Below, in pieces: positions 32,713-34,286 of a DNA stretch of 64,000 bases; positions within the stretch are counted from its first letter, which is position 1, and the number at the start of each line of letters is the position of its first letter. Position numbers and translations under genes: made by a program. Source of the DNA: Ascidiaceihabitans sp. (GTDB lineage: Bacteria > Pseudomonadota > Alphaproteobacteria > Rhodobacterales > Rhodobacteraceae). Under the pieces are notes generated by a model. The model was not told where the DNA came from, did not search any database, and worked only from the letters and a program-made list of their open reading frames with translations. Location: NCBI GenBank assembly GCA_028825475.1, contig JAPKAB010000008.1:32498-96497 (forward strand), in the 5' to 3' direction.

Positions 32713-33005
32713 GCACTAAGGCAGAACATTACGACGTAATCCGTAAACCGATTATCACAGAAAAAGCGACACGTGCTTCTGAAGCAAACGCTGTTGTTTT
32801 CGAAGTGGCAATCGACAGCAACAAACCAATGATCAAAGCGGCTGTTGAAGCTCTCTTTGGTGTAAAGGTTAAGGCCGTGAACACCGCGATCACTAAAGGT
32901 AAAGTGAAACGGTTCCGCGGTGCGCTGGGTCGTCGGAAAGACGTGAAAAAGGCGTATGTGACTCTCGAAGAGGGTAACTCCATCGACGTCTCAACTGGGC
33001 TGTAA
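32709..33005 (+). CDS. rplW: 50S ribosomal protein L23
   Basis: 98 aa; docking site for trigger factor and SRP at the exit tunnel. Complete, from YDVIRKPIITEKAT to the C-terminal segment KKAYVTLEEGNSIDVSTGL. The last 129 bases (32877-33005) have a diverged second copy at 34095-34223. A terminator follows at once, so L23 ends its transcript here rather than running into rplB as is usual. Confidence 0.98.
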   Translation: MSTKAEHYDVIRKPIITEKATRASEANAVVFEVAIDSNKPMIKAAVEALFGVKVKAVNTAITKGKVKRFRGALGRRKDVKKAYVTLEEGNSIDVSTGL

Positions 33006-33065
33006 GCTTAGTTAAAACAATTTGGGGAAACCCCGTCTGTGTAAGCAGGCGGGGTTTTTCTGTTT
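32877..33065 (+). repeat. Direct repeat copy 1: rplW 3' end plus terminator
   Basis: This segment, the last 43 codons of rplW (stop included) and about 60 bases beyond, matches 34095-34283 without gaps. By eye the coding part differs at 14 of 129 bases and the downstream part at about 14 of 62. The two copies flank the lpxL-like gene. Confidence 0.9.
33028..33059 (+). terminator. Terminator after rplW
   Basis: Stem CCCCGTCTG / CAGGCGGGG with a 6-base loop, flanked by AAA and TTTTT. Its sequence is homologous, without gaps, to the terminator after the duplicated rplW tail near 34,260. Confidence 0.88.
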
Positions 33066-33208
33066 TTGAGATGTCGAACTCTGCATCGAACACAATCGGT
33101 GGTCGAGATCGGCACCCAAAAATGTTAATTATGCACTGAAAACCAAGCACTTCCACAAATTCATACGTTTTCGATTGGTATCACCGCAGAAGGCGATCAT
33201 ACGGTGCT

Positions 33209-34084
33209 ATGTTCTTTAAACCTCTCAAATCAGTGCTACACCACGCCCGCTATTTTCCGTTGTGGTCCGCGCTGACTGTTTTGCGCTGGCGTGCATTCGA
33301 TTTGCGCTCTCGCGGGTTGGGGACGACATTGGGATTGATCGTGCGTTGGTTCCCGCCGGCCACCCGCCGATTTGACCGCGAAGCAAAGCGCGTGTTCCCA
33401 GACATGAAACGCAGCGCGCGAACCAAGTTGGGCCAGTCGATGGGCCGCCAAATGGGACGTACGCTGTTTGAGATTTACCACCTCACTGAATTTCACACCC
33501 AACACCACAAGTTTGAAACCACGGGTCCAGGTTTGGACGCGATCAAAGAAGCTAGCGCCGCAGGCAAAGGTGCGATCATCGTTTCTGGGCACTTTGGCCA
33601 ATGGGAAGCTATTCGCGCTGTGGTCAAGATGAACGGTTTAGAAAGCGGCGCAGTTTATCGACCGAACAAAAACCGCCATTATGAACGACGCCTGCTTGCG
33701 GGGATCAAAGCGGGCGGGCAACCCATTTTGGCAACGGGACGGGCAGGGACCAAAGCCCTTGTGCGCCATATCCGTAGCGGTGGCATCGTTTCAATATTGA
33801 TGGATGAAAAACAAGCGGAAGGGACAGGACTGCCGTTCCTAGGCCACGACGCACTCACATCGCTATCCGCAGCACAGCTTGCGCTTAAATACGATGTGCC
33901 CTTGGTCCCCGCCTATGGAATACGGATAGGAGACGGAAACGAATTCCACGTAGAGTTCGAGGCACCCATTCCACACTCTGATCCAGTGACTATGACACGC
34001 GCATTCAACGACAGCCTGTCCGCGCGGATCATGGCGAACCCAGACCAATGGTACTGGCTGTTACGACGGTGGGACCGGACGTAA
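33209..34084 (+). CDS. LpxL/HtrB-type lipid A (lysophospholipid) acyltransferase family protein
   Basis: A 291-residue membrane-bound acyltransferase of the lauroyl/myristoyl transferase family that adds secondary acyl chains to lipid A or related lipids. The HX4E catalytic motif is seen in VSGHFGQWEAI (about 126-136), followed by YRPNKNRHYE and the SILMDEKQAEGTGLPFLG block. An N-terminal amphipathic or hydrophobic segment (about 14-50) anchors it. It sits between two copies of the rplW tail inside the ribosomal operon, which suggests it arrived as an insertion. No close paralogue is in the window to compare. Confidence 0.87.
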   Translation: MFFKPLKSVLHHARYFPLWSALTVLRWRAFDLRSRGLGTTLGLIVRWFPPATRRFDREAKRVFPDMKRSARTKLGQSMGRQMGRTLFEIYHLTEFHTQHHKFETTGPGLDAIKEASAAGKGAIIVSGHFGQWEAIRAVVKMNGLESGAVYRPNKNRHYERRLLAGIKAGGQPILATGRAGTKALVRHIRSGGIVSILMDEKQAEGTGLPFLGHDALTSLSAAQLALKYDVPLVPAYGIRIGDGNEFHVEFEAPIPHSDPVTMTRAFNDSLSARIMANPDQWYWLLRRWDRT

Positions 34085-34094
34085 GGGGGATGCC

Positions 34095-34223
34095 GTGAAC
34101 ACACCGATCACTAAAGTTAAAGTGAAACGTTTCCGCGGTGCGCTGGGTCGTCGGAATGACGTTAAGAAGGCGTATGTTACACTTGAAGAAGGTAACACAA
34201 TCGACGTCTCAACTGGTCTGTAA
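34095..34223 (+). pseudogene. Diverged duplicate of the rplW 3' end (43 codons including stop)
   Basis: An in-frame, stop-terminated segment encodes VNTPITKVKVKRFRGALG and the rest of the L23 C-terminus up to DVSTGL. Against the true rplW it has 13 changed codons, nine of them synonymous; the residue changes are A to P, G to V, K to N and S to T. The excess of silent changes means the copy diverged while under coding constraint, so it probably came from another rplW gene rather than decaying in place. It has no SD and no 5' half, and it ends with its own terminator. Confidence 0.9.
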
Positions 34224-34243
34224 GACTGGTTGACATGATTTGG

Positions 34244-34277
34244 AAAAACCCCGCCTGCGAGAGCAGGCGGGGTTTTT
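34244..34277 (+). terminator. Strong terminator after the rplW tail duplicate
   Basis: A perfect 15-bp stem with arms AAAAACCCCGCCTGC and GCAGGCGGGGTTTTT and a GAGA tetraloop. A-tract and T-tract on either side make it potentially bidirectional. Confidence 0.92.
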
Positions 34278-34286
34278 CTGTTTTGT

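Follow-up and report, generated by a model that had tools for sequence, protein, structure and literature searches.

A second rplW tail as a likely scar of gene acquisition at the rplW-rplB seam of Ascidiaceihabitans sp.

Rhodobacteraceae have an insertion pocket between rplW and rplB, a seam at which different species hold different extra genes. We analyzed a 64,000-nt stretch of Ascidiaceihabitans sp. (assembly GCA_028825475.1, contig JAPKAB010000008.1, positions 32,498 to 96,497; hereafter the window), in which rplW is followed by an lpxL-like gene, a second copy of the rplW tail, and the open reading frame (ORF) orf268 before rplB is reached (Table 1). This second tail is likely the scar of one more guest gene that was stitched in by ordinary recombination, probably without an integrase. 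In the reading that we favor, to which we give a probability of about 0.6, tail 2 is the left end of a foreign piece consisting of an rplW tail, its terminator, orf268, and the rplB leader, which was joined by recombination at the rplB leader and non-homologously behind lpxL.

The direct repeat in the window pairs positions 32865-33073 with 34083-34291, an ungapped match of 209 nt at 84% identity. A preliminary description, made from the sequence alone, had reported that the 3' 129 bases of rplW and its terminator recur downstream at about 89% identity in the coding part and about 77% beyond it, that nine of 13 changed codons are synonymous, and that the pair flanks the lpxL-like gene alone. 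Our recount agreed on each point: the coding parts are identical at 115/129 nt and differ at 14/129, the 13 differing codons divide into 9 synonymous and 4 nonsynonymous, the copies agree at 52/68 nt (~77%; counted by eye) beyond the stop codon, and lpxL is the only gene between the tails. A blastn search of the window's own genome recovered the second copy at E = 3e-60, far beyond chance, and listed no third. Terminator-like hairpins of 18 pairs each close both copies. The lpxL stop codon occupies 34082-34084, and the clear match of tail 2 begins 7 to 10 nt further on; tail 2 has no rplW start, and the upstream part of rplW is absent beside it. No tRNA gene was found within the window. The start of orf268 may lie at 34460, since its two homologues are no longer than 225 aa.

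Table 1. Features of the rplW-rplB region, in positions of the window
Feature	Position	Strand	Evidence or remark
rplW (L23), native gene	32709..33005	+	Pfam PF00276, E=5.8e-33; NCBIfam NF004360 above cut-off
rplW tail copy 1 (last 129 nt of rplW)	32877-33005	+	starts GTG
Terminator-like hairpin T1 after rplW	33023..33062	+	consensus match
lpxL-like acyltransferase gene, putative older guest	33209..34084	+	PF03279, E=8.6e-38; below every NCBIfam cut-off
Junction of lpxL stop and putatively imported rplW tail	34085..34094	+	alignment; relatives have ~50 nt of common spacer there
Tail copy 2, putatively imported rplW tail	34095..34223	+	in frame to its own stop; rplW start missing
Terminator-like hairpin T2 behind tail 2	34241..34280	+	consensus match
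orf268, putative newer guest, protein of unknown family	34331..35137	+	no Pfam or NCBIfam match
Hairpin T0, on the rplB side	35251..35272	+	by eye and consensus scan
L2-Alphaproteobacteria ribosomal protein leader (RF03142) of rplB	35302..35370	+	50.5 bits (gathering score, 37.8); E=3.3e-10
rplB (L2)	35372..36214	+	ORF; 85-100% identity in relatives' loci

We searched 12 genomes of the genus and found RplW in 8, of which 5, counting the window's, have the lpxL-like gene downstream of rplW. In G295, G296, and G302, lpxL is the sole guest between rplW and rplB, the second tail and orf268 are both missing, and the spacer from lpxL to the rplB leader is short and alike in all three; the G298 contig stops inside lpxL, leaving only the lpxL start visible. 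A tree built from ~1.6 kb of rplC-rplD-rplW grouped the window with G302 and G298 (support of 99/98) and placed G295 with G296 (98/99) as the sister group. Since the window is nested among relatives that hold lpxL without the second tail or orf268, tail and orf268 would be a later gain, and the simplest history is one in which lpxL is the older guest and the segment of rplW tail, terminator, and orf268 was gained later, on the rplB side, in the window's line. On the evidence of the same three genomes we rejected lpxL as a late insert, and they leave without support the earlier suggestion that the tail pair marks lpxL as an integrated element.

Tail 1 is identical in G298 and about 98-99% identical in G295, G296, and G302. 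In a tree of the tails, which has 129 columns only, tail 2 fell outside the five-species tail-1 clade (99/97), a placement that supports the preliminary proposal of an import from a related rplW and not decay in place. Both tails and G303 fell together in a set of seven rows (96/96), and the nearest congener to tail 2 is G303, at 91%. Tail 2 thus seems to derive from a related rplW and to have arrived together with orf268 and not lpxL. Immediately ahead of rplB, 4 positions set the window apart from G295, G296, and G302, which agree with one another; the window then matches these relatives at 98-100% over several hundred nucleotides (G295 has a run of N in the leader). From this pattern of four differences followed by a match, it looks as if the right crossover fell in the rplB leader. 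By eye, the left junction is without clear homology, and the right junction, the site of the putative crossover, is continuous with the relatives.

The donor would be a close relative carrying orf268 beside its own rplW, and the DNA may have entered by RecA-dependent uptake through a gene transfer agent (GTA) or natural transformation. On the right, the piece would then have been joined by homologous recombination at the rplB leader, and on the left without homology, immediately downstream of the older lpxL. Homology-facilitated illegitimate recombination is described in PMC3240628, and a model for Vibrio arrays combines a homologous end with an illegitimately joined one (PMC5361080). The rplB leader with rplB, and also rplW, are well suited as the one homologous end that such recombination needs. 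The GTA marker PF13547 was present in 11/13 genomes, including that of the window, and was not found in the incomplete G296 and G302; ComEC (PF03772) was present in 13/13, again including the window's genome, and was partial or had stops in G296 and G302. GTA particles would carry DNA pieces of fitting size. A search of 390 genomes of the order found no donor with the arrangement rplW-orf268-rplB, and the 7 orf268 matches in this set were the own genome (one strong match) and 6 weak ones. A protein database held 2 homologues of orf268, 93-94% identical, on short ENA contigs without gene context, and viral contigs gave no match.

The S10 operon is one of the well-conserved bacterial gene orders. 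rplW and rplB are 17 nt apart in E. coli K-12 and 2-31 nt apart in 28/28 other alphaproteobacterial families, represented by the best-scoring loci among 55 such genomes searched, with gene ends extrapolated from alignments. In the Rhodobacteraceae, the two genes were separated by 92-5517 nt at the 52 closed loci among 60 genera fetched, a set drawn from better-ranked matches away from contig ends and not a random sample; the remaining 8/60 loci had no rplB inside the fetched stretch. Of the closed loci, 16 had gaps of <=300 nt, 4 had gaps of 319-391 nt, and 32 had gaps of >400 nt. The preliminary description had proposed a search for empty junctions, and genomes with short ones do exist. The joint between rplD and rplW is a 4-nt overlap in 212/213 loci (some genomes counted twice), so the rplW-rplB seam is open and the rplD-rplW joint is not. 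Across these genomes, variable cargo stands between conserved core genes, as in a core-gene-flanked hotspot. Locus L114, from a record titled Nocardioides marinus strain DP1N28-1, has a Rhodobacteraceae-like S10 operon and seems to be the same contig as G238; its actinobacterial name looks wrong.

Among 11 short junctions inspected, 8 have one similar hairpin between rplW and the leader, judged by eye, and L057, L132, and L139 have none. This T0-type hairpin stands directly behind rplW in those 8 junctions and adjoins the leader in the window, where rplW has T1. An L2 leader upstream of rplB is a table entry in PMC7247131. We infer that the point of entry for guests lies between rplW and T0 and that a pocket, once filled, acquires a separate terminator and probably also a separate rplB promoter; a sigma-70 promoter scan on the rplB side of the window gave no match. 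Because the pocket in the window sits between a terminator and rplB's own leader, the effect of guests on ribosome synthesis may be small.

Other cargoes between rplW and an rplW tail, for which the preliminary description had also proposed to look, were found above all as arrays in Ruegeria, the genus of G597. RplW was present in 53/54 Ruegeria genomes, and at least one further rplW-tail match appeared in 17 by protein search alone. Of the 53 loci that we fetched, 39 were closed; in the other 14, the fetched stretch contained no rplB oriented as expected, and some of these loci were at contig ends. All 39 closed loci exceeded 400 nt, and 24 of them hold one to four direct rplW tails (23 loci with tails at E <= 1e-6). 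Tails were rarer outside Ruegeria, at 2/32 filled loci in the 60-genus set and 6/56 loci most like the window (window included), counted after exact duplicates, Ruegeria rows, and six repeated records had been taken out of these sets. Over all filled gaps, direct tails occurred in 32/127 and inverted tails in 0/127; control queries of equal length gave 0/127 for rplD and, for inner rplB, 0 direct and 1 inverted match.

The Ruegeria arrays reach five segments separated by four tails. Recurring guests are a fatty acid desaturase (F0), members of the MarR and YceI families (F1/F3), an aldose epimerase (F19), F2 (no Pfam match), and F11 (short, outside the Pfam scan). Their order varies, from F0-F3-F2 in G623 and G624 to F2-F3-F0 in G599; in G624, where the ORF caller chose an antisense frame, the end of F3 was read from the sequence before the tail. 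One-guest junctions without any tail occur in G614, G617, G631, G643, and G644, among others, and in G652 a tail is present with no gene ahead of it. Leftover tails would become new homology arms, at which incoming rplW-gene-rplB pieces could swap or add the next gene. Repeated rounds in Ruegeria would build arrays of the size seen. In general, the anchor of such events would be mostly at rplB and sometimes at rplW.

If units were added at rplW, by an integrase or from an upstream anchor, the tails nearest rplB would be expected to be the oldest. We compared every array with at least two tails in three sample sets, 12 in all, and in 9 of them the tail nearest rplB is more like the locus's own rplW than the tail nearest rplW is. 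The exceptions are G628 (a 30-nt match), G657, and L083 (by 0.2 points). Several arrays share ancestry, and we therefore give no p-value for this age gradient. In Ruegeria, the first segment is common to other Ruegeria loci in 20/24 arrays and the last segment in 12/24, by a simple ORF rule. This rule scores the last segments of G619 and G658 as shared owing to spurious ORFs that overlap tails, although the larger genes of these two segments are unique. A tail stands before the rplB side without an intervening gene in 0/24 arrays, and the last gene is often close to the leader (6-70 nt before it in the cases inspected). The age gradient, the segment sharing, and the constant presence of a gene before the rplB side fit addition at the rplB end. 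Mirror scars, that is, direct copies of the region before rplB, were present in four loci (L046, L258, L259, and L277), and the same event with its anchor at rplW would leave such scars. No Ruegeria locus had an rplB-side scar, versus 24 with tails. A weak inverted rplB-side match in L072 and a match at E = 0.001 in L292 were not counted.

The cargo is mixed. We collected 170 cargo ORFs by a simple longest-ORF rule, which admits some spurious ORFs, antisense ones included; 122 went into the main Pfam scan and 29 into a second scan, and 19 close relatives of those were omitted. The 122 ORFs matched 94 families, and among the best 25 families none occurred in more than 2 ORFs. One transposase-type match (rve_3) was found among the best 25 families of the cargo scans. 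PADLOC matched 220 families, the best 25 of which each match 2/122 ORFs; we therefore rejected the cargo as a defense island, and defense is at most a part of it.

Tails start at nt 157-272 of rplW, with 41/52 at nt 193-226 and none before nt 157 when the query started at nt 91. The starts differ between loci (157-172, 193-226, and 247-249). In Ruegeria, 26/43 tails start <=10 nt from a stop codon. Where the last guest is kept intact, the junction must fall between the guest's stop codon and the leader, which partly explains tails near stop codons. Random junctions and selection explain only part of the cluster at nt 193-226, which could come from deletion of long repeats or from a preferred break. 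Hairpins in rplW were considered as a cause of clustered breakpoints. The mean percentile for 25 junctions was 0.35 over nt 20-268 (permutation p of 0.004) and 0.38 over nt 150-268 (p of 0.026), and a reduced set of 16 gave 0.32 in both ranges (p of 0.009 and 0.004). Of the 9 non-Ruegeria junctions, only L099, plus L082 in one range, was clearly low. The effect sits in Ruegeria, where the junctions are non-independent, and we did not count hairpins as support. The two strongest predicted rplW hairpins in Ruegeria (nt 157-186 and 199-234) coincide with many tail starts in that genus, a coincidence that is not general elsewhere.

Site-specific integration at the rplW 3' end, as for islands at tRNA genes, would make lpxL the element and the tails its attachment sites, with the integrase lost or acting in trans. 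The geometry of the tail pair and the cluster of 41/52 tail starts fit this account, and ribosomal-protein 3' ends are known targets of ICEs (PMC4701971). The relatives that hold lpxL without a second tail largely refute it for the window, whose addition lies on the far (rplB) side, and the five named one-guest junctions lack the tail that it calls for. We found no tyrosine integrase (PF00589) near rplW or between rplW and rplB among the best ~150 of 184 matches in 14 genomes, and a motif scan of 633 junction ORFs gave 3 matches, none integrase-like by eye. The tail starts also vary by locus, and most of the repeats exceed the 12-54 bp given for streptococcal tyrosine-integrase ICEs in PMC4701971. 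We regard this account as improbable. Growth of opposite polarity is unlikely, though it too would place tail 2 outside the clade: donor DNA anchored at rplD-rplW would have brought lpxL and a new rplW 3' end, pushing the old tail and orf268 downstream, as proposed for T6SS immunity arrays. The rplB-side scars suggest that rplW-anchored events have occurred at other loci, and this polarity may hold for some of the arrays. For the window, this polarity requires that G302 and G295/G296 lost tail 2 and orf268 and yet ended up with spacers of one kind, and the age gradient runs contrary to it in 9/12 arrays.

An old duplication within the lineage, in which a tandem copy of rplW and its terminator was later trimmed to a tail, would agree with both tails falling in one set with G303. 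We consider it very unlikely, because three relatives lack tail 2, no upstream rplW remnant lies beside it, 0/8 RplW-bearing congeners have two full rplW genes at the locus, and the 9/13 synonymous codon changes fit a working gene elsewhere. The genome is a draft of 84 contigs at 94.8% completeness, so assembly or binning could in principle have produced the repeat. Such an artefact has next to no probability in our view: the repeat lies well within a single 96-kb contig, like architecture occurs in many other genomes, some on long contigs, and relatives of orf268 are present on other contigs. Acquisition of a foreign piece anchored at the rplB leader remains the reading that we prefer for the window. 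A bolder extension of it, possible but doubtful, is that the rplW 3' end acts as a natural integrase-free cassette platform, with tail and terminator as the joint, docking of new genes beside rplB, and a hidden activity that cuts or joins DNA and prefers nt ~193-226 and the bases immediately after a stop codon. If so, each guest would come with a ready terminator and with a homology arm at which the next could enter.

Integron gene cassettes form arrays of single genes in which a repeated element follows soon after many gene ends and the order is shuffled. The rplW arrays are alike in all three respects. They differ in that growth is apparently at the far end, the repeat is the tail of a protein gene, and no IntI-type tyrosine integrase was seen at the array in the matches and ORFs scanned. 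T6SS immunity arrays and orphan Rhs 3' ends in Vibrio cholerae (PMC5361080) resemble them in the proposed growth by homology at a single end and in leaving old 3' parts behind, with illegitimate joining at the opposite end, and that study reports no integrase evidence. Those arrays have an upstream anchor and toxin-immunity cargo, whereas the anchor at the rplW seam is seemingly mostly downstream (rplB), the scar consists of a ribosomal gene tail plus terminator, and metabolic genes are mixed with unknown ones in the cargo. Hotspots without mobile elements (PMC5635113), which are supplied through double recombination in the flanking core genes, likewise have variable genes between core genes, no integrases seen, and homology arms on both sides, but they are defined within species; the rplW seam is a split ribosomal operon of a family with duplicated core-gene tails between guests. 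Streptococcal elements at the 3' ends of rplL, rpsI, and rpmG (PMC4701971) are alike in inserting behind a ribosomal gene, in leaving the protein intact, and in direct repeats of the gene end. They carry integrases and 12-54 bp repeats, whereas at the rplW seam no integrases were seen and most repeats are longer.

Core-gene insertion by recombination (PMC5635113) and ribosomal 3' ends as integrase targets (PMC4701971) are thus already known. In the open-licence literature, which may miss other reports, we found no description of a split S10 operon that holds an array whose joints are ribosomal-gene tails. Here a single family has an open S10 operon that serves as a landing strip, and from the tails the succession of gene arrivals can be read. 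The seam is a natural setting in which to test how individual genes come into chromosomes when no mobile-element machinery is involved, and it may be a neutral place for strain construction in Ruegeria and its kin.

Some Ruegeria loci were rearranged or unusual. In L231 (G610), rplW and rplB share one orientation and lie ~17 kb apart, with a guest region far larger than elsewhere. In L190 (G606), L191 (G608), L195 (G607), and L222 (G656), rplB lies ~4-12 kb from rplW and is inverted; in G607, G608, and G656, the tail copies are turned along with rplB, a picture suggestive of a large inversion that broke the array. In L235 (G641, ~6335-6406), an rplW tail match is found ~1.1 Mb away from rplW, and the fetched 13 kb contains no rplB. 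L180, L194, and L185 share the same GC-rich palindrome-like stretch before tails (gap positions 152, 3074, and 1404, respectively), where it replaces the gene end; its occurrence before three tails of different Ruegeria is perhaps that of a repeated element.
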